64,000 bases of DNA from the NCBI RefSeq assembly GCF_030409755.1, contig NZ_JAUFQE010000001.1, forward strand, positions 1,888,742 to 1,952,741, given 5' to 3'. The first letter of the stretch is position 1. Every line of letters starts with the position of its first letter. Position numbers and translations under genes: made by a program. The notes beneath the pieces are model-generated. The model was given only the letters and a program-made list of their open reading frames with translations, made no database searches and had not been told where the DNA came from. The DNA is from Vibrio lentus (GTDB lineage Bacteria; Pseudomonadota; Gammaproteobacteria; Enterobacterales; Vibrionaceae). Positions 53,272-63,681 of this stretch are shown here, piece by piece.

Positions 53272-54309
53272 CTAATTATCTAAAGGATTGAGGTGAACAG
53301 CCTGCATCAAATGTTCTGGGGCAAAATGAGAATACGCCATTGTCTGCTCGATTTTTGTGTGACCAAGAATACGCTGCAGCACTAAGATATCCCCTTTATT
53401 CATCATAAAATGCGAAGCAAAAGTATGCCGTAGAACATGGGTCGCTTGCCCATTCGGAACGTGCTCAGGCAAGGCTCTTTTTATGTAACGCCAAGCATCT
53501 TTGTAACTGGTGTTAAATATGTCATGGTCGCTCACCGCTATATCTAATATCTCTTGATACAAAGATGGTGAGATAGGCACACTGCGATTCCTTTTCCCTT
53601 TTGTCTCTGTGTAAGTCAATTTGAACTCGGTTATTTGAGTGCGAGTTAGAGTGAGTGCCTCACTGATTCGTGCACCAGTGGCCAAACAAATTTTCGCGAT
53701 GACAATGATTTGCGGGATTGATACCTTGATAACTCGCTTGCAGTTCTGCAGTTCATCAAAGAACTCGTCGATTTGTGGCTTGGTTAGATAGGCAAGGTGC
53801 TTCTCACTGGTTTTGATCGGCTCGATTGCTTCAAGCGGGTTGGGATATTTCCACTGATTGTACTTAATCAGCTTCTTGAACATGCCCTTTAGATAAATCA
53901 GTTCATGGTTGTGTGTGGTTGGGGATATCTCGATGGATTTATTCTTGCCCCTATAGGGGACTCGACCTGCTCGATACGCCAGGTAGTCTCGTTCTTTAAA
54001 CTGGCAGGCAATTGGGTTACCTAACTCTTCAATTGTTTTGGATATGAGATCTTTGGCTTGCTTGCCTGACTTTAGAGTATGGCCATGGATGGTCCACCAA
54101 TTTTCCAAAAGCTCACTCATTCTTCGGTTATCCGGTTTAATACCCATCCAGGGCTTATCGTCAATCTCCTTCATCGTGTGAAGCTCAAAGGCTTTAGCTT
54201 CGCCTTTCGTAGCAAACTTCTTACGAACGCGTTTTCCTGCTCGTCCGTTTGGGTAGCATTCGCAGATCCAAGGTTTGATAGAACCATCTTTTAAATTGCG
54301 GATAGACAT
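53272..54309 (-). CDS. int: Phage-type tyrosine integrase
   Basis: About 345 residues from the minus-strand ATG at 54309 (the frame is open to 54393). N-terminal arm-binding part: SIRNLKDGSIKPWICECYP and KFATKGEAKAFE. Catalytic tetrad: Arg in TGARISEAL (about 213), HVLRH (about 290), His in LGHTK (about 316) and Tyr in TMAYSHF (about 325). It resembles integrases of P2-like Vibrio phages. The stop is 112 bases from tdh, so the attachment site lies in that gap. A LexA-like box is 18 bases upstream of the start. Confidence 0.93.
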   Translation of the reverse strand: MSIRNLKDGSIKPWICECYPNGRAGKRVRKKFATKGEAKAFELHTMKEIDDKPWMGIKPDNRRMSELLENWWTIHGHTLKSGKQAKDLISKTIEELGNPIACQFKERDYLAYRAGRVPYRGKNKSIEISPTTHNHELIYLKGMFKKLIKYNQWKYPNPLEAIEPIKTSEKHLAYLTKPQIDEFFDELQNCKRVIKVSIPQIIVIAKICLATGARISEALTLTRTQITEFKLTYTETKGKRNRSVPISPSLYQEILDIAVSDHDIFNTSYKDAWRYIKRALPEHVPNGQATHVLRHTFASHFMMNKGDILVLQRILGHTKIEQTMAYSHFAPEHLMQAVHLNPLDN

Positions 54310-54326
54310 AATAAAGCCTAAAATAA

Positions 54327-54342
54327 CTGTATATAAAAACAG
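54327..54342 (-). promoter_or_regulatory. LexA (SOS)-like box upstream of int
   Basis: CTGTATATAAAAACAG matches the LexA consensus CTG-N10-CAG with TA-rich centre at 14 of 16 positions. It lies 18 bases upstream of the int start, where LexA would block transcription. Confidence 0.7.
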
Positions 54343-54442
54343 TATAAGTCGAGCTAAAACGTAGAACAATGTTTTATATCGGACAAAAAGCACAGGTTAG
54401 ACACCTTTCTCAAAGTGCTAAGAAAGTTAATAGGTCTTTGCT

Positions 54443-54823
54443 ATGTATCATTCGATTCATGTGACTGCTGGTTACAGTCATTTCAAAATCAACAGTGATG
54501 GTCCAATTGGGGTTAGTAAGAAGAACCAAGGAGTGATTGATGCGCTTTTGAAGCTTGGTAACCGTTTTACGGCTCCATTTGGTGGGTTTATAGAAGCCGA
54601 AAACGAGATCGGCTTGAAGTGGGTGAAACTGGTCGATATTAAGTATCTGTGCACCGATGAGGAAGCCGAAACCATCGAGTACGTGATACAAAAAAACCAT
54701 TATGTAGTGGGAACGTATCAAGATCGGAAGTTGTACATTTTATTGTTTGGTGGAGAGCCAAAACACCATCAGATAAAAGGCCTTGAACAAGATGGGAAAA
54801 ACAATGTGTTTGGGTTGTTTTAG
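54443..54823 (+). CDS. Hypothetical protein, 126 residues
   Basis: A soluble protein I do not recognise. It begins VTAGYSHFKIN and has a KKNQGVIDALLKLGNRF helix, then a beta-rich half (WVKLVDIKYLC, KLYILLFGG). There is no signal peptide or helix-turn-helix. It lies between int and the methyltransferase, on the same strand as the defence-like operon but 171 bases away, so it may be separate. Ribosome site weak. Confidence 0.6.
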   Translation: MYHSIHVTAGYSHFKINSDGPIGVSKKNQGVIDALLKLGNRFTAPFGGFIEAENEIGLKWVKLVDIKYLCTDEEAETIEYVIQKNHYVVGTYQDRKLYILLFGGEPKHHQIKGLEQDGKNNVFGLF

Positions 54824-54994: not shown

Positions 54995-56035
54995 TTGTCA
55001 CCTCAAAAACAACCAATCATATTTTCATTCTTCTCTGGTAGTGGATTTTTAGACTTAGGCTTTGAACGTTCAGGGTTTGATGTTCGTTTCGTCAATGAAT
55101 TTCATAAACCATTTTTAGATGCTTATGAGCACTCTAGAGGTGTAATGGAATTACCAAAACCTAAGTATGGTCATTTCCTTGGAAGCATTGAAGACTTTGT
55201 CACTGGCGATAAAGCTGAAGAGCTAAGAGAGTATGTGGAAGATGCAAAAGCTGATTCATTGGTCGGGTTTATTGGTGGACCACCGTGCCCTGATTTCTCG
55301 GTAGCAGGGAAAAACAAAGGTTCTGAAGGCGAAAACGGTAAGCTAAGCCGCGTTTATATTGATGCGATTATCCAGAATAAGCCTGATTTCTTTTTGTTCG
55401 AGAACGTAAAAGGGCTTTGGAGAACCATAAAACACCGCGCGTTTTACGATGAAATGAAAGAACGATTAGAACAGGAAGGTTATATTCTTACTGACCGTTT
55501 AACCAACTGTATTGAATATGGAGTCCCTCAAGATAGGGATCGTATTTTACTTTTTGGTATTCATGAATCCCGTGCCGGTGGTATCGCAAGCAAAGAGCTA
55601 GAAACGCAGTTTAACTGGGAAGCCAAAGTTAAGTTCGATAGAACTGTCGTGCTTAATAAAGGTATGTGGCCTGGGCATGAAGAATATGAGCAAGACTCTA
55701 AGAAAGAGCTTCCTGAGTCGCTTTCTGAGTTTTACGAGTTGGCTGTTGAACACTGGTTTAAGAAGAATGACGTATACAACCACCCGAATTCGACGCATCA
55801 CTTCAAGCCCAAGTCAATGCATCGATTTCAAACAATATTAGAAGGTGATGACAGTAAAAAGTCATTTAAACGTCTTCATAGGTGGCGTTATTCTCCTACA
55901 GCAGCATATGGAAACAATGAGGTTCACCTTCACCCGTATAAAGATAGGCGCCTAAGTGCTGCCGAATCGTTAGCTATTCAGTCGTTGCCAAAAGAGTTTT
56001 GTTTCCCATCGACAATGACTCTGTCCATGAGTTAG
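54995..56035 (+). CDS. C5-cytosine DNA methyltransferase lacking motif X
   Basis: A 346-residue Dcm-type enzyme from TTG 54995 (AGAAAGG upstream). Motif I is FFSGSGFLDLGF (12-23), motif IV GGPPCPDFS with catalytic Cys 98, motif VI FLFENVKG (Glu 136) and motif VIII QDRDR (179-183). The target recognition region follows, then motif IX (RRLSAAESLAIQSLP). The frame stops at MTLSMS, where relatives usually continue to motif X (IGNxVP). Either the enzyme is truncated or its C-terminus is supplied differently. It heads a four-gene operon and overlaps the next gene. Confidence 0.85.
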   Translation: MSPQKQPIIFSFFSGSGFLDLGFERSGFDVRFVNEFHKPFLDAYEHSRGVMELPKPKYGHFLGSIEDFVTGDKAEELREYVEDAKADSLVGFIGGPPCPDFSVAGKNKGSEGENGKLSRVYIDAIIQNKPDFFLFENVKGLWRTIKHRAFYDEMKERLEQEGYILTDRLTNCIEYGVPQDRDRILLFGIHESRAGGIASKELETQFNWEAKVKFDRTVVLNKGMWPGHEEYEQDSKKELPESLSEFYELAVEHWFKKNDVYNHPNSTHHFKPKSMHRFQTILEGDDSKKSFKRLHRWRYSPTAAYGNNEVHLHPYKDRRLSAAESLAIQSLPKEFCFPSTMTLSMS

Positions 56036-57594
56036 GGACTTTGTCGGAACTTCAATCAGCAGAACTTCGCGCAGTTCGTAAGAAAATAGATAACTATACA
56101 GCTTTATCTAATCAGATTATTGCGGATTCCCAAGCCTCAATCGTTCAGACGCTAAAGGCTGCCTTCGATGCTGTTACGAAAAAATATCCTGGAGATGTGA
56201 TTGTTGAAGATGCTACTAAGGCTTTAAGTGAGTTAAGTAGTCTTAACCAACAAGTCACCGACGCAGTTGTGACTCTGGATGGAGCTATATATTCCAGCAA
56301 AAATGATGATACTTACGAGCAACCTGAACCTGATAAGTCGATAGATGAGTTAATTGATGATGAGTCATTAACGGGTATTGAAAACGACAACGACAAGGAA
56401 GCAAATGGTCCAATTCTTCAAGGAAAAACTAAGATTCGTCAGTTAACACCAGTTGTTTCATTGATTTATGACCGTTTAAGTTTTGGTGAAATTGAATTGC
56501 AGCCAGACTTTCAACGTAAAGATAGAGTTTGGCCTGAACCTAGGAAATCAAAGTTAATTGAGTCTATCCTAATGGGCTTGCCCTTACCTGTATTCTATTT
56601 TGCTGAAAAGCCTAATGGTGACTGGATAATTGTCGATGGTTTACAGCGAATTACCACTATATACGATTTTATGCGTGGTGAGTTTAAGCTTAATGGATTG
56701 GAAGTATTAGATGAACTCAATGGTACTAGTTTTAGTGAATTAGAACGAGCAGAGCAAAGGAAAATTCGTGAATATCCTTTGACAGCTCACCTGATTGATA
56801 TGGCGACAGACAAAGACAATATTATTGTTGAACTTTTTCACCGAATTAACACTTATGGTGTGAAGTTGAGTGAGCAAGAAATTCGTTCTGCCCTTAATCA
56901 AGGTTCAAGTGTTAAGTTTTTAAGGTTCCTAGCTGCAACACCTGAGTTTAAATCAGCGACACATGGGAAAATCAAGTCTGATCGACAAAAAGACATGGAA
57001 CTTTGTCTATCTGCGCTGTCGTTTATGCTGCGCGGTTATATGAGCTTCGATAATCAGTACAATAAGTATTTATCCGAAGCGATGGAAGGTATGAATGTGC
57101 ATTCTTTGACATTAGCGAACGAAGAACTATTAGATGATGGAAGTGCTGAGCTACCTCTAGATAAAAATCCAGTTTACAGTTTGATTGCTAATAAGTTTAA
57201 GAATGGTTTGCAAATCTCAGAGCAAGTATTTGGCGATTATGCATTTAAAAAAGTGCCAGATAGCGCGAGGAAAATACCTTTAAGTAAGCCTCTATTTGAA
57301 TTAATTGTGACTTATTTTTCTGAATTAAGTGAAGAGCAGGCGCAACAAGTTATGGCGCATGGCGATGAGTTGATCGATATGTTGTATGAAGCAATAGATC
57401 GAGACTCTTCGGATTACGCTGTCTGGGAATCGAAAAAATATGAAAAAGAAGGTCGAGGCTTCTTGTATTCAATTAGTCAATCAACTGGTAAGAATGTAAC
57501 GGTTCGATTCCGTTTTGATTCATTTAGAGAGATCCTAAAACAGAGCACCGGTGTTGATGTAGAGCTATGTCCCATTTTATTAGGAGCTAACTAA
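55999..57594 (+). CDS. DUF262 (ParB/GmrSD-like) protein
   Basis: A 531-residue protein as read from TTG 55999; the start is unsure because there is no in-frame ATG for 190 codons, and TTG 56041 is an alternative. Residues about 1-145 are helical and acidic. The DUF262 domain follows, with QPDFQRKDRVW (168-178), VDGLQRI (212-218) and FHRINTYG. DUF262 occurs in GmrSD, SspE and similar restriction factors, where it binds or hydrolyses nucleotides and senses DNA modification. There is no visible C-terminal HNH (DUF1524) nuclease domain. It overlaps the methyltransferase gene by 37 bases. Confidence 0.8.
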   Translation: MFPIDNDSVHELGTLSELQSAELRAVRKKIDNYTALSNQIIADSQASIVQTLKAAFDAVTKKYPGDVIVEDATKALSELSSLNQQVTDAVVTLDGAIYSSKNDDTYEQPEPDKSIDELIDDESLTGIENDNDKEANGPILQGKTKIRQLTPVVSLIYDRLSFGEIELQPDFQRKDRVWPEPRKSKLIESILMGLPLPVFYFAEKPNGDWIIVDGLQRITTIYDFMRGEFKLNGLEVLDELNGTSFSELERAEQRKIREYPLTAHLIDMATDKDNIIVELFHRINTYGVKLSEQEIRSALNQGSSVKFLRFLAATPEFKSATHGKIKSDRQKDMELCLSALSFMLRGYMSFDNQYNKYLSEAMEGMNVHSLTLANEELLDDGSAELPLDKNPVYSLIANKFKNGLQISEQVFGDYAFKKVPDSARKIPLSKPLFELIVTYFSELSEEQAQQVMAHGDELIDMLYEAIDRDSSDYAVWESKKYEKEGRGFLYSISQSTGKNVTVRFRFDSFREILKQSTGVDVELCPILLGAN

Positions 57595-57596
57595 TC

Positions 57597-58751
57597 ATGA
57601 TTAAGTCTGTCGCTCTAGAAAATTTTAAGTGTTACAAAAATCGTGAATTTGATTTTTCTGCGCTAACCGTTTTTTGTGGAACTAATTCAGTGGGTAAAAG
57701 TACAGCTATTCAAGCACTTTCAATACCTCTGCAATCTCGATTTGAAAAAGTAGCCAAGTTGAATGGGTCATTGGTATCAGTAGGTTTTGGAAATGATGTT
57801 CACCATAAAGATAATACTGGGCAAGTTGGGCAAGATCTAAGTCTGTCTGTAAAAATTAACCTTGATGGACACATCCTCAATTGGGGATATCATGAATTAG
57901 ATGATTCAAGCGATGAATTACATTTATTGAGCGGTTATACAGGTGAGTTACCTGAAAACTTCGAAAATCTAGTTTCAAACTTTCAATATTTACAGGCCGA
58001 GAGGTTAGGTCCGCAAAGTAGTTTTGACCTTATAGAAGGTAGCCGTTTTCATGAATATTGGTTAGGGGCAAAAGGAGAATTTACTTCAGAGGTACTTGCT
58101 AGGTCTCAAAAATATAAACGTCTTTATATAGGTGGTTCTAGTACTCCAGTAAAAAACAATCCAGATCCACGAATGCATGAATCAGAAGCTAGAGATGGAT
58201 TACTTCGTCAAATTAATGCTTGGCTAAATGAAATTAGTCCCGGAATAGAATTAAATCCTGACTTAATCGAGGCGGCAGTAGCTTCAATTAATATCTTTGG
58301 ACAGAACTATCGCAATTCAATAAAGCCTCAGAATGTAGGTTTTGGTATCAGTTATGTATTGGGCATAGTAACTGCGCTTCTCAGCACCCCAAAAGGTGGG
58401 TTGGTTATTATTGAGAATCCTGAAGCGCACCTGCACCCGAGAGGTCAAAGCTTTCTAGGGCGTCTGATTGCCTTGACAGCTCAAGCCGATGTTCAAGTGG
58501 TAGTTGAAACACACAGTGATCACTTACTCAATGGTATACGTGTGATCACTAGGCTTAAAGAAGACTTTGATCCAAAATTGTTTACGCCTTACTACATATC
58601 ACAAGGCGAAGAGCAGAGTAATGTAGAGAAAATTACTATCACTAAAGATGGTAAATTGTCTAACTGGCCAGATGGCTTTTTTGATCAACAAGCTCAAGAT
58701 ATGTTCATGATCATGACAGGGCAAGAACAGTTTCCGCCTAAAAGGGATTGA
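57597..58751 (+). CDS. AAA ATPase of DUF3696 type (OLD/SMC-like)
   Basis: A 384-residue ATPase of the RecF/SMC group. Walker A GTNSVGKST is at 28-36. Walker B is GLVIIENPEAHLHPRG (about 270), and a switch segment VVETHSDHLLNGIR (about 305) follows. C-terminal DUF3696-like part: GKLSNWPDGFFDQ. Such ATPases often drive a nuclease or sensor in defence systems. AGGAG sits 10 bases before the ATG. No TOPRIM nuclease domain is present, so the effector must be another subunit. Confidence 0.82.
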   Translation: MIKSVALENFKCYKNREFDFSALTVFCGTNSVGKSTAIQALSIPLQSRFEKVAKLNGSLVSVGFGNDVHHKDNTGQVGQDLSLSVKINLDGHILNWGYHELDDSSDELHLLSGYTGELPENFENLVSNFQYLQAERLGPQSSFDLIEGSRFHEYWLGAKGEFTSEVLARSQKYKRLYIGGSSTPVKNNPDPRMHESEARDGLLRQINAWLNEISPGIELNPDLIEAAVASINIFGQNYRNSIKPQNVGFGISYVLGIVTALLSTPKGGLVIIENPEAHLHPRGQSFLGRLIALTAQADVQVVVETHSDHLLNGIRVITRLKEDFDPKLFTPYYISQGEEQSNVEKITITKDGKLSNWPDGFFDQQAQDMFMIMTGQEQFPPKRD

Positions 58752-58753
58752 AC

Positions 58754-59668
58754 ATGAAAGCTAACATTTGTTTTGTACCTCAAAGTTTTGATTTCTCGAA
58801 AGAGCAAGATGCTGTAGCTCTTTCGATTAAGGCGTCCTCAGATATAATTGAAAAATATTTTGAAGATGAAGGCTTTATTTCATTTGCCAAATCAAGTGAT
58901 TTTGATGTTAATGCCGCCACTGAACTATTCAAGCAACCTGCACATTTAGATGCAGGTACTATTATGAGCCTACTCTATGATGCCAATATGGGAAGGGCTA
59001 GCACCATAAACGAGTTAGATTCTATACAGATAGTTCGCTTGGTTGATACCGATAGGCCTGAGCATGAAGGGGCATGGTTGTCTCTATATTCATCGGTTCC
59101 AAGTATTAGCTTAACTACACAACCGTTGCGTAATGTTGTCGATGAAGAGACTTTAGTTAAGTTTGGTTCTGATGTATTAGTACAGAATCCAAGGACTCAT
59201 AAACAATATGCTGAAAGTTTTGTTCATCTATATAAGAATTTAATTTTTTTAGACTATCCTGAGCATGCAGTGAACAAGAGTTTCGACAGTATTCGAAAAA
59301 TCGAGGGAGGCTACCAATCTTTTATTGATGGCATCACTGGTTGCCTCATGTTTATGGATCAGTACGAAATTACTCCTCATGACTCACAAAAGAACATTGA
59401 CAATCTTAATGCAGAGTTGGATTTCCCTGTTACCCCTGAAGGTAAAGGTAAAAATAAAAGAAAAATAGCAGCTCTAAAGCGAGATTTTTTTATTGAACAG
59501 ATCGAGTACAAAAATGTTAACTGTGAGTACCATTACAAGCTAGAACGAGTAGATGGTGCTAATGGAAACGGAACGTATCATTTCAATCGTATATATTTTG
59601 GCTTTTTTAATCGAATCGATCCTGATAAACCAAAAATTGCCATAGCGCATATAGGTGATAATTTATAA
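58754..59668 (+). CDS. Unrecognised protein, fourth gene of the defence-like operon
   Basis: A 304-residue soluble protein from ATG 58754 (AAAGGGA upstream; the frame also reads from TTG 58748). I do not recognise the family. It starts with a strand-rich part (ICFVPQSFDF), has a helical middle, and near 160-170 shows FLDYPEHAVNKSFDSI, then a Lys-rich tract (GKGKNKRKIAALKRDF) and a C-terminal beta region. The start lies 2 bases after the ATPase stop, so it is surely part of the system. It could be a nuclease, target binder or toxin, but I see no known catalytic motif. Confidence 0.7.
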   Translation: MKANICFVPQSFDFSKEQDAVALSIKASSDIIEKYFEDEGFISFAKSSDFDVNAATELFKQPAHLDAGTIMSLLYDANMGRASTINELDSIQIVRLVDTDRPEHEGAWLSLYSSVPSISLTTQPLRNVVDEETLVKFGSDVLVQNPRTHKQYAESFVHLYKNLIFLDYPEHAVNKSFDSIRKIEGGYQSFIDGITGCLMFMDQYEITPHDSQKNIDNLNAELDFPVTPEGKGKNKRKIAALKRDFFIEQIEYKNVNCEYHYKLERVDGANGNGTYHFNRIYFGFFNRIDPDKPKIAIAHIGDNL

Positions 59669-59673
59669 AAAAG

Positions 59674-59696
59674 AGCGGCATATCGCCGCTTTTTTA
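59674..59696. terminator. Bidirectional terminator between the defence-like operon and the repressor unit
   Basis: Arms AGCGGC and GCCGCT with a 5-base loop, preceded by A-run and followed by T-run, so it can serve both strands. Confidence 0.88.
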
Positions 59697-59708
59697 TGCG
59701 AACTCACA

Positions 59709-60281
59709 CTAATCACTAAACTTTTTCCATTTGCCTGACGCACATTCTTTTAGTATCAATCCAACATAAATAATAGTAAATGTAATCAGGACAATACCTT
59801 TTGTTTGAGAACTCACTGAAACGTGGCCGAAAAACATTGTACTGAGGTGGTTTAGTATTAAGCCAACCCAAATAAGGGTTGTGAAATCACTAAGGGCAAT
59901 GGCAGTCCGGCTTACGGAGAACTTTCGTGAATTTAACCAATGTGACTTATGTTGTTGTGTATCTTCAGCGCGAAATAAGTCAATATTTCCTAGTTCTGAT
60001 TCTAGTTTGGTTACCATTGTTTCCCAGTGCTCTTGCCAATATTTGCTACCGCGATTAACTAAGCTCCAGCACAAGGAGCAGATGAAGCCAAAACAAGCTG
60101 TCGCTAAAGCAAAATTATGTTTCGATTCAACGGTAAGAGAGCCATAACTGATGAATGCTGTCGCAATGAATCCCCAAAAGAATAAAGAGCGTTTCCAATA
60201 AAGGTCAATTTCAAAATTACGAGTCTCAATTGCGATTTTATAGGCCGCAAGTGTTGTTAGCTTTTCTTCCATTCCACTCAC
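59709..60281 (-). CDS. RipA-like membrane protein, coupled to the repressor
   Basis: A 190-residue protein, starting at GTG 60281, whose first base overlaps the repressor stop (GTGA); ATG 60272 is an alternative. N-terminal helix and NFEIDLYWKRSLFFWGFIA, then four hydrophobic segments in two pairs with a soluble loop (about 75-125) between. Layout and N-terminus resemble the RipA family of octameric membrane proteins. Genes in this position in P2-like prophages are often lysogenic conversion or exclusion factors. Function is inferred. Confidence 0.65.
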   Translation of the reverse strand: MSGMEEKLTTLAAYKIAIETRNFEIDLYWKRSLFFWGFIATAFISYGSLTVESKHNFALATACFGFICSLCWSLVNRGSKYWQEHWETMVTKLESELGNIDLFRAEDTQQHKSHWLNSRKFSVSRTAIALSDFTTLIWVGLILNHLSTMFFGHVSVSSQTKGIVLITFTIIYVGLILKECASGKWKKFSD

Positions 60282-60898
60282 TTCTTCTCCATCACTAACG
60301 CAACTCTACCCACAACCCTCACTTCATCTTCTTCGACTGTTAGAGTCGAGCCGTTAAAGCTGATCGCTAGCTTCTTGCCTGGCAAACGCTGAATGTCGTT
60401 TAGCGATAGTAGGCCGTCCATATCTACTAAGTATGTGCCGCTTACTGCTTGGTGAATTTCTTTATCGATAATGAATGTAGTCCCATCGTGCTCGATGCCC
60501 ATTACATTCAGAACCCCAAGTTTGTCTAAGTAGCTTTTATCAAAAGCTAGCGTTTCATTGCCAACAAGCTTGCCGTTTGAAAGTGAAAAGAGATCAACAT
60601 CGAAGAGTCTTTTTACTTCGTTTTTCTTGGATGTATGGGTTTTCTTGTCATCAAACGGTTCACCTTCTCCCAAGGCTAGATATTTGATAGAAGCTCCAGT
60701 CCTCAAATGAAGTCTCACAATCACTTCGTAAGGGGTCAATCCTCTCTGGTGCCAAGTCGATATCGTGCCTTTTGACACACCTAAGCACTCACCAAGCGAC
60801 TTAAAGTCACTTGTTTTTGTGACGATCTTCATCCTTTCTGTTACATCTCTACCGCCAATGTACTCAAAAGAGGGTGTTTGTTCTTGGTATTCACTCAT
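60278..60898 (-). CDS. CI-type phage repressor
   Basis: A 206-residue regulator. Residues about 20-80 form a helix-turn-helix (SLGECLGVSKGTISTWHQRG) of the phage CI type seen in 186/P2-like phages. The C-terminal half (about 115-205) has the peptidase-like fold of oligomerising repressors, but I find no Ser/Lys pair in the expected places (GIEHDGTTFIIDK, PGKKLAISF), so RecA-driven self-cleavage looks unlikely. It is divergent from the Cox-like gene across 90 bases, and co-transcribed with the RipA-like gene. Confidence 0.85.
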   Translation of the reverse strand: MSEYQEQTPSFEYIGGRDVTERMKIVTKTSDFKSLGECLGVSKGTISTWHQRGLTPYEVIVRLHLRTGASIKYLALGEGEPFDDKKTHTSKKNEVKRLFDVDLFSLSNGKLVGNETLAFDKSYLDKLGVLNVMGIEHDGTTFIIDKEIHQAVSGTYLVDMDGLLSLNDIQRLPGKKLAISFNGSTLTVEEDEVRVVGRVALVMEKK

Positions 60899-62200: not shown

Positions 62201-62518
62201 ATGAATCATCATGTGTTTGCGGTCGTACAGGGTAAAGTTATTCAAACCAGTATTGAAGCAGTCTCCAATTTAGTCTTAAAAGGTAAAGAAGAGTGGCGTG
62301 ATGCAGTCACTTGTCCTTCGAAAAGGTGTTCGATAAAAATTGACACCCGTGGCGGCTACGAAAGCTCGAAAGGCATGGCTTTGACCGGCTCTCGAATCTT
62401 GTCAGAGAGAGTCAATAGTACTGATTCAGTAACGGCGCTCAACGCTCAAGACAATCTCTCTTACTTTGTTTTTTCTAAAGGTGAGTATGGGCAAGGTGCA
62501 CCGAGGGTGATGAGATGA
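62201..62518 (+). CDS. Hypothetical phage early protein
   Basis: A 105-residue protein with an N-terminal beta segment (HHVFAVVQGKVIQTS), two cysteines (TCPSKRCSIKI) and no known motif. It overlaps the replicase gene start by 4 bases, so they are co-translated. Function unknown. Confidence 0.6.
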   Translation: MNHHVFAVVQGKVIQTSIEAVSNLVLKGKEEWRDAVTCPSKRCSIKIDTRGGYESSKGMALTGSRILSERVNSTDSVTALNAQDNLSYFVFSKGEYGQGAPRVMR

Positions 62519-63681
62519 CGGCTCATTCTGAATACGCTGCGTCTTCATCCATTTCGTGTTTGAGTCGGCTACTTGAGGAAGCGCCTTATTTGTCGAGGTG
62601 CAGTGACAATAAAACCGCGATGCTCATCAGACCTCGAAACTATGCGGTCAGATGGCCGTATATGCAGGTTAATCGTAAAGAGATGCAGGCGTGGATGGTG
62701 TTTGACATCGATCATGACCATCGCTCTGTCCCCAACCCCTATATTTGGCAAGATGAAGGCTTGCCACCCCCTAATCTAATCGTTCGAAACCGCACCAGTA
62801 ATAAAGCCCACCTTTTTTACGCTATTGTGCCGGTTTGCACCAGCGATCAAGCCCGATCCAAACCCATTCAGTACCTCAAAGCCATTTATCGCGCATTAGC
62901 CTTACGACTTGAGGCGGACTTAAGTTATTCAGGACCTGTTGCCAAAACGCCCTTTCATCCTTGGTGGCAGACAACTGAACTCCACCGCAGTGTCTATGAA
63001 CTCAATGAGTTAGCGGATTCTCTTGAGCTGGAGACAACGCGGCCATGGCTTCGTCAAGATATTGATGTCTCTTATTCTCGAAACTGTACTTTATTCGAAC
63101 ACACTCGTCGATACGCGTATGACATCGTCGACGAAGAAAGAGAAAAGGGCAGTTATACGAACTTTAAACGCCGTGTCGAGAGTTTCGCTCATTACAAAAA
63201 TACCGAGACTGCGGATAAGCCGCCTTTGAAGTGCAGTGAGGTGTTGGCGGTGGTGAAAAGTGTTTCTCGTTGGACCTGGGATAAATATTGTGCACGGTCA
63301 GACTGCCAGCGAGGTGTGATGAGATTGGATAGTGGATTAAGTTTACAGGAAAGGCAGCGTAGAGCGGCCAGAAGAACCCATAATCTTCGTCGGACGAAGA
63401 CCACTCGCCGAATTATCCGCGCTTGTCAGTTTCTGTTACGCAAAAATCAGGAGCTCACGATTGGTTCGGTGGCACGTAATACGGACCTGTGTCGTCAGAC
63501 CGTCAGTCGTTACGTCTATTTGTTTGAATGGGTCAAGTCTGCCTTATCCGAAAGTAGGCAAAATGGGCCAGAGCATCGTGGTAATTATGCTGTTCATCAG
63601 ATATCTGCCCCTATAACGTTATACTGGGCGGAGTATGAAGTAGGGAAAAAGAAGGCGGTACTTGAGTCAGCTTTTCCTTGA
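62515..63681 (+). CDS. Replication protein: replicase/primase (RepA of the ColE2-like plasmid group) with PriCT-like domain
   Basis: A 388-residue protein whose first half matches the plasmid Replicase family: AWMVFDIDHDHRS (metal-binding Asp residues of an AEP-type primase), NLIVRNRTSNKAHLFYAI and a Leu-rich helix. A PriCT-like region follows (about 205-255). The C-terminal third is Arg-rich with a helix-turn-helix-like SVARNTDLCRQTVSRYVYLF. Such proteins make primers at the element's own origin. P2 itself uses a different (HUH) protein A, so this replication module is unlike the rest of the frame. Confidence 0.82.
   Translation: MTAHSEYAASSSISCLSRLLEEAPYLSRCSDNKTAMLIRPRNYAVRWPYMQVNRKEMQAWMVFDIDHDHRSVPNPYIWQDEGLPPPNLIVRNRTSNKAHLFYAIVPVCTSDQARSKPIQYLKAIYRALALRLEADLSYSGPVAKTPFHPWWQTTELHRSVYELNELADSLELETTRPWLRQDIDVSYSRNCTLFEHTRRYAYDIVDEEREKGSYTNFKRRVESFAHYKNTETADKPPLKCSEVLAVVKSVSRWTWDKYCARSDCQRGVMRLDSGLSLQERQRRAARRTHNLRRTKTTRRIIRACQFLLRKNQELTIGSVARNTDLCRQTVSRYVYLFEWVKSALSESRQNGPEHRGNYAVHQISAPITLYWAEYEVGKKKAVLESAFP

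Follow-up and report, generated by a model that had tools for sequence, protein, structure and literature searches.

A probable, recently damaged Menshen variant with its own C5-cytosine methylase in Vibrio lentus

Introduction

Four tightly packed genes at positions 54995 to 59668 of the window, the 64,000-nucleotide stretch of Vibrio lentus DNA analyzed here, raise the question of whether a C5-cytosine methylase, a DUF262 protein, a DUF3696 ATPase, and a fourth protein form an undescribed defense system, as a preliminary description of this DNA had proposed. The last three genes match NsnA, NsnB, and NsnC in PADLOC, and the core is therefore a system that already has a name, Menshen. Menshen (NsnA-NsnB-NsnC) was reportedly described by Millman et al. 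in 2022. The locus in the window is probably a recently damaged variant of Menshen with its own methylase, methylation guided in its intact copies and deprived of this function here.

Identity of the four genes

All four reading frames listed in the preliminary description exist on the forward strand. The first (54995 to 56035) encodes a C5-cytosine methylase truncated at its 3′ end, which matches Pfam DNA_methylase (E value, 4.2e-42) and PADLOC MTase_II model PDLC03355 (9.2e-159); its second PADLOC match is a Druantia methylase model (2.6e-125). The second frame (55999 to 57594) is a remnant of nsnA with a DUF262/GmrSD_N domain, and its match to PADLOC NsnA model PDLC03877 (7.5e-120) spans residues 117 to 517. 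The third gene, nsnB (57597 to 58751), is full length and encodes an AAA_15/AAA_21 ATPase with DUF3696 according to Pfam; its product matches NsnB model PDLC03878 (9.1e-103) over model positions 1 to 343 of 345 and is 99% identical to the NsnB of L004, a contig from IMG/VR. The last gene, nsnC (58754 to 59668), is also full length and has no Pfam family, and its product matches all 301 positions of NsnC model PDLC03915 (1.5e-88), with 98% identity to L004. It starts at ATG 58754, the listed open reading frame opening at TTG 58748. Across the whole genome, the NsnC model found this single place.

The locus resembles Menshen in that NsnA, NsnB, and NsnC are all present, adjacent, and in the order A-B-C, with gaps of 2 bases between nsnA and nsnB and between nsnB and nsnC. 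It differs in the C5 methylase alongside and, in 15 relatives, in an NsnA domain of about 110 residues that is absent from 25 other Menshen loci. Pfam bore out the family assignments previously made for the first three genes, and the protein that had been called unassignable is NsnC. PADLOC thus placed three of the four genes in Menshen and the methylase under Type II restriction-modification (R-M) and Druantia models.

A deletion scar at the methylase-nsnA junction

The nsnA frame of the window begins inside the methylase gene, and the resulting 37-base overlap had been taken for a gene junction. A blastn comparison with L004 revealed instead that 560 bp bounded by a repeated 13-base sequence are absent from the window. 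L004 has copies at both ends of the missing stretch, alike at 12 of 13 positions, and the window keeps one, at the deletion junction (56014 to 56026). In L004, a methylase of 373 amino acids (aa) ending in motif X is followed by a hairpin and a 124-bp leader and then by a 637-aa NsnA. Motif X, the hairpin, the nsnA leader and start, and about 110 N-terminal NsnA residues were lost in the deletion. The 37-base overlap is therefore its scar, and it is because of the deletion that the window methylase ends after 346 aa, short of motif X, and that NsnA has lost its start. In alignments, methylase residues 1 to 344 are homologous to L004, and the homology of the nsnA frame to its relatives begins at about residue 6; the DUF262 and C-terminal parts of NsnA are still open. 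A frameshift in place of a deletion was ruled out by the missing 560 bp, and the comparison with L004 likewise ruled out that the four genes form one intact operon.

An active C5 methylase has PPC and ENV, both catalytic, as well as motif X. The window methylase retains PPC (Cys 98) and ENV and lacks motif X, which is present in nine aligned relatives. Judging from the sequence, an inactive methylase and an nsnA without its native start are likely consequences of the deletion. All four window proteins are 98 to 99% identical to those of L004, and the deletion appears to be recent because few codons in the four genes differ from L004, at least two-thirds of these differences being synonymous.

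Spacing of the methylase and nsnA in relatives

The relatives encode methylases of 372 to 403 aa and NsnA proteins of 625 to 683 aa, with NsnA split in the locus L031. A leader of 70 to 309 bp (121 to 126 bp in eight loci) separates the methylase gene from nsnA in 13 of 15 relatives. The exceptions are L003, in which the methylase gene lies downstream on the other strand, and L025, in which the two genes abut. Ten of the 13 leaders open with a terminator-like hairpin, and at most 6 of 200 shuffles give one. The leader and hairpin thus suggest that most intact relatives probably have two transcription units rather than one four-gene operon. An RCCGGY site, sought in the 13 leaders with autoregulation in mind, was found in none.

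A terminator-like hairpin with a T run follows nsnC (59674 to 59690), between it and an opposing gene; it was listed on the reverse strand only, and a T run on the forward side is visible in the sequence too. The scan that contains it gave 4 terminator-like sites, compared with 3.9 expected from shuffles. No Rfam families were found at 53 to 64 kb of the window. The frames, families, and setting noted in the preliminary description stand, and the overlap as a gene junction does not.

The methylase pairs with an N-terminal domain of NsnA

The distribution of the methylase and of the NsnA N-terminal domain was compared across loci gathered from genomes, IMG/VR, and phage records by NsnC, NsnA, NsnB, and domain queries and scored with our own profiles. 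All 15 Menshen loci with the domain carry the methylase (524 to 729 bits), and none of the 25 without the domain carries this methylase. One of these 25, L159, was counted as lacking the methylase; a weak match to C5 methylases (47 bits, where family members score 524 to 729) lies there on the opposite strand, at a distance of about 4 kb from nsnA. That the 25 loci are Menshen is supported by the gene after NsnB, which matches PADLOC NsnC in 20 of 20 tested, most weakly in L159 (3.2e-11); L026 to L028 were originally found by their NsnC, and the stretches covered for L038 and L149 contain no gene after NsnB. NsnA is 362 to 432 aa long in 24 of the 25. The other, the 576-aa NsnA of L143, was rejected as an extended form, since part of its frame is shared with an upstream gene of 981 aa that has a methylase-like motif, and it gives no domain match.

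The survey least seeded by the window, a search with PADLOC NsnB in 398 genomes, yielded 26 places with E values of ≤8.5e-87: 3 in the methylase group (G000, G141, and G664), 21 without the methylase, and 2 that were dropped (L158 and L161). Left out of the counts of 15 and 25 were loci with incomplete or broken components (L014, NsnA cut by the contig; L037 and L039, stretch ending before NsnB; L158, no NsnA in its stretch; L161, NsnA and NsnB broken), loci without a match to NsnA (L162) or to either NsnA or NsnB (L029), DUF262 proteins without an NsnB or NsnC match (L042 to L062), L040 (other methylase, other extension), duplicates of L004 and L035 (L030 and L064, respectively), and the window itself, in which the domain is deleted and 16 bits remain. 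L031, with NsnA in two frames, was counted as domain bearing; this further copy (L031:3662-5583) has its nsnA split right after the N-terminal domain. A test for coevolution of the methylase and the domain gave a weak result (r = 0.41), and among the pairs compared NsnC was the part most easily exchanged.

A further pairing that arose independently is represented by a single case, L040, a Menshen (PADLOC NsnA, 2.7e-120; NsnC, 2e-109) with a different C5 methylase. Its NsnA carries an extension of another kind, about 200 residues long, for which no PADLOC or Pfam family match and no match to the NsnA-domain profile were found. This Menshen (L040:4989-10091) sits among prophage late genes.

The methylase and the domain beyond Menshen

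Structures were modeled for NsnA and for its N-terminal domain. Weak matches of the domain model were mostly to winged-helix proteins; solved structures gave no meaningful match to the domain sequence. A domain query found nothing in plasmids and two matches in phage records. In IMG/VR, the N-terminal alignment recovered 11 loci, 7 of them Menshen contigs already collected and 4 others. In one of the four, L075, a methylase of the same family (55% identity) is followed by the domain fused to a McrB-like ATPase and then by a LlaJI-type protein (NCBIfam McrB, 1.7e-17, far below the model cutoff; Pfam AAA_5, 4.5e-8; Pfam LlaJI, 3.9e-40). L075 thus shares the methylase family and the N-terminal domain with the Menshen loci and differs in having a McrB-like AAA protein and a LlaJI partner rather than DUF262 and a DUF3696 ATPase. 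In L074 and L078, methylases of 39 to 40% identity accompany a large ATPase, a second large protein, and the domain as a separate protein. By eye, we take this ATPase to be GHKL/MORC-like, with MORC as a candidate name; in L074 it weakly matches the MzaB ATPase (3.4e-5), and the second protein is a helicase with restriction-type matches. HARE-HTH was a further candidate name considered in the analysis. Two more proteins of L078 (L078:8477-10240) resemble the domain by eye. In L077, the domain follows what by eye is a helicase-like fragment at the contig start, and the stretch covered contains no methylase.

Scanning with the methylase alignment recovered 33 loci, five of them sorted by the identity of their contigs to loci collected before. 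Seven are Menshen, 2 have a Cfr10I-type enzyme, 9 have an enzyme of about 360 aa of one type, 1 is McrB type (L090, the contig of L075), and 4 have gene sizes like those of L074 and L078, two being those same contigs and L103 and L106 being judged by gene size only. Three have a DUF262 gene with no domain match (L095, L100, and L102), 2 have no clear partner, 1 is cut short, and 4 are distant methylases. In L100 and L102, and in L163 (Akkermansia phage Chambord, with the same gene order and sizes), a methylase of this family precedes a DUF262 protein of 387 aa and a protein of 178 aa. Across 17 compared methylases, the motif IX region is nearly identical irrespective of partner.

The two members tested of the ~360-aa enzymes match PADLOC REase_II model PDLC03534 at ≤8e-123. 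The NsnA-domain profile weakly matches the N-terminal part of 8 of the 9 (whole-protein E values of 6.6e-9 to 4.9e-5 in single-locus searches). In reverse, PDLC03534 gave a match to the domain protein in L078 (6.4e-7) and in L075 (1.3e-3) and none to that of L074 or to L004 NsnA. For the enzyme of L101, no meaningful match to solved structures was found. The PDLC03534 systems resemble the window's relatives in methylase family and in this weak match and differ in having a single restriction-enzyme-type protein in place of NsnA, NsnB, and NsnC. Three plasmids carry relatives of the methylase; the two annotated ones adjoin Cfr10I-type enzymes, and the third record has no annotation. The methylase relatives beside Cfr10I-type enzymes show 58% and 55% identity. 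According to PMC4652773, Cfr10I and Bse634I cut R/CCGGY. Cfr10I/Bse634I-type Type II R-M systems share the methylase family with the Menshen loci and differ in their enzyme: neither a Cfr10I-type nor a PDLC03534-type restriction enzyme was found in the window and its 15 relatives at an E value of 1e-3, with profiles based on 2 and 9 sequences, respectively.

Proposed mechanism

In intact copies, we propose, the methylase would mark host DNA at a CCGG-type site, probably RCCGGY, and the N-terminal domain of NsnA, predicted to be winged-helix-like, would bind the same site when it is unmethylated in incoming DNA. The DUF262 domain would serve as a nucleotide switch, NsnB as an ATP-driven transducer, and NsnC as an effector or second sensor. 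In the window, this methylation-guided function would be lost, and the joint removal of marker and reader would avoid self-attack. The earlier suggestion that a methylase plus a DUF262 protein points to self/nonself discrimination by DNA modification finds inferential support in the intact relatives; in the window, both genes that would carry it out are truncated.

A broader and more tentative possibility, one that we judge a little less likely to be right than wrong, is that the methylase and the site-reading domain form a portable self/nonself cassette placed on at least four unrelated effectors (Menshen NsnA, the McrB-like ATPase, the GHKL-ATPase/helicase systems, and, more diverged, the nuclease-type restriction enzyme), by which the Menshen trigger could be reset to unmethylated RCCGGY. 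In that case, Menshen would provide a general effector chassis that the addition of one domain and one methylase can reset; the window would represent the reverse, with marker and reader gone in a single deletion.

Alternative explanations

Menshen proper could instead be methylation independent, with the methylase a hitchhiking orphan or R-M remnant and the NsnA domain serving another purpose. Such a hitchhiker would fit the 25 of 25 domain-less loci that also lack this methylase, the downstream, opposite-strand methylase of L003, and the hairpin in 10 of 13 leaders. Hitchhiking would not require the methylase to accompany the domain in 15 of 15 loci, nor the domain to recur next to this methylase family where the effectors are different, and we consider this explanation unlikely.

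It is distinctly unlikely that the window allele still functions, converted by the loss of methylase and reader to the common methylase-free, short-NsnA form of Menshen. Its NsnB and NsnC retain their full length and differ little from their L004 counterparts, the open DUF262 and C-terminal parts of NsnA remain, and a short NsnA is the rule in 24 of the 25 domain-less loci. The native nsnA start and leader are gone, however, and translation would have to begin by chance at a codon such as TTG 55999 or GTG 56197.

A modification-dependent system of the GmrSD or BrxU kind, or of the kind reported for the DUF262 of Dazbog, in which NsnA detects modified cytosine and the methylase is regulatory, seems improbable. 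The DUF262 model of NsnA does resemble BrxU, which acts on modified cytosines. Under this explanation, however, host DNA would become a target through the resident methylase, and relatives of the methylase partner ordinary Cfr10I-type R-M enzymes. GmrSD, BrxU, and SspE share DUF262 with the Menshen locus, which differs in having a separate ATPase and NsnC; Pfam found GmrSD_N only, and no DUF1524 nuclease domain, in the NsnA of the window and L004.

That the deletion is an assembly artifact and the genome copy intact is highly improbable: the assembly is a draft, the window ends at a contig end, and repeats flank the missing part, but a repeat of 13 bases falls well short of the length of a read, the rest of the region is unbroken, and the genome has one NsnC place. 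Least credible is an undescribed defense system with its own mechanism, for which the methylase's matches to PADLOC Type II R-M and Druantia models, and to no Menshen model, could be cited; the matches to all three Menshen components are strong and follow the order of the system, and the GenBank phage record PQ189377, with the same arrangement, already bears the notes Menshen NsnA/NsnB/NsnC and Type II MTase.

Novelty and significance

The Menshen core and the GenBank labels for the same arrangement are already known. The literature searched, which did not include Li et al. 2025 (NAR gkaf357), the likeliest treatment, gave no description of a methylase-linked Menshen branch, the shared domain having no name that could be queried, and the novelty of the link between the methylase and Menshen is uncertain. 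Menshen is named in the accessible part of PMC10952713, where its recognition of infection is unsettled and confirmation of the role of the DUF262 part is left to future work. If one Menshen branch senses unmethylated sites, its trigger would be directly testable with ordinary methylated versus unmethylated DNA, and Menshen, McrB-like, and nuclease systems would be connected through a single recognition part, the reader domain.

The carrying element and its neighbors

The earlier placement of the four genes as cargo between integrase and repressor genes holds for the window and for 9 of 15 relatives: in these 10 of the 16 loci, the cassette is flanked by integrase and CI repressor genes that belong to the same families. 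In the window, these are a reverse-strand tyrosine integrase (53272 to 54393; Pfam Phage_integrase, 9.8e-18; Int_N, 1.1e-33), 53% identical to that of L004, and a reverse-strand CI-type repressor (60278 to 60898; Pfam Phage_CI_repr, 8.7e-20). Two annotated Vibrio phage records, one of them Peduoviridae, carry the cassette; a query of plasmids and phage records with the window NsnC gave nothing at an E value of 1e-5. The right end of the element lies outside the window, because the window end (64000) is the contig end.

Between nsnC and the repressor gene lies a reverse-strand gene for an 8xMP membrane protein (59709 to 60281; Pfam 8xMP, 3.9e-32), which was kept outside the system count. It is also present in L004 (97% identity) and L031 (59%) and may be a further cargo gene. 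Between the integrase and methylase genes, positions 54443 to 54823 encode a 126-aa protein (phrog_15882) that is 97% identical in L004 and L005, despite integrases in these two loci that are just 53 to 59% identical to that of the window. A Replicase/PriCT-type replication gene (62515 to 63681) does not resemble the gene of 885 aa that L004 has in its replication region. The element adjoins a tdh-like gene in the window and a GMP reductase gene in L001 and L004 (by eye) and L063 (annotated).

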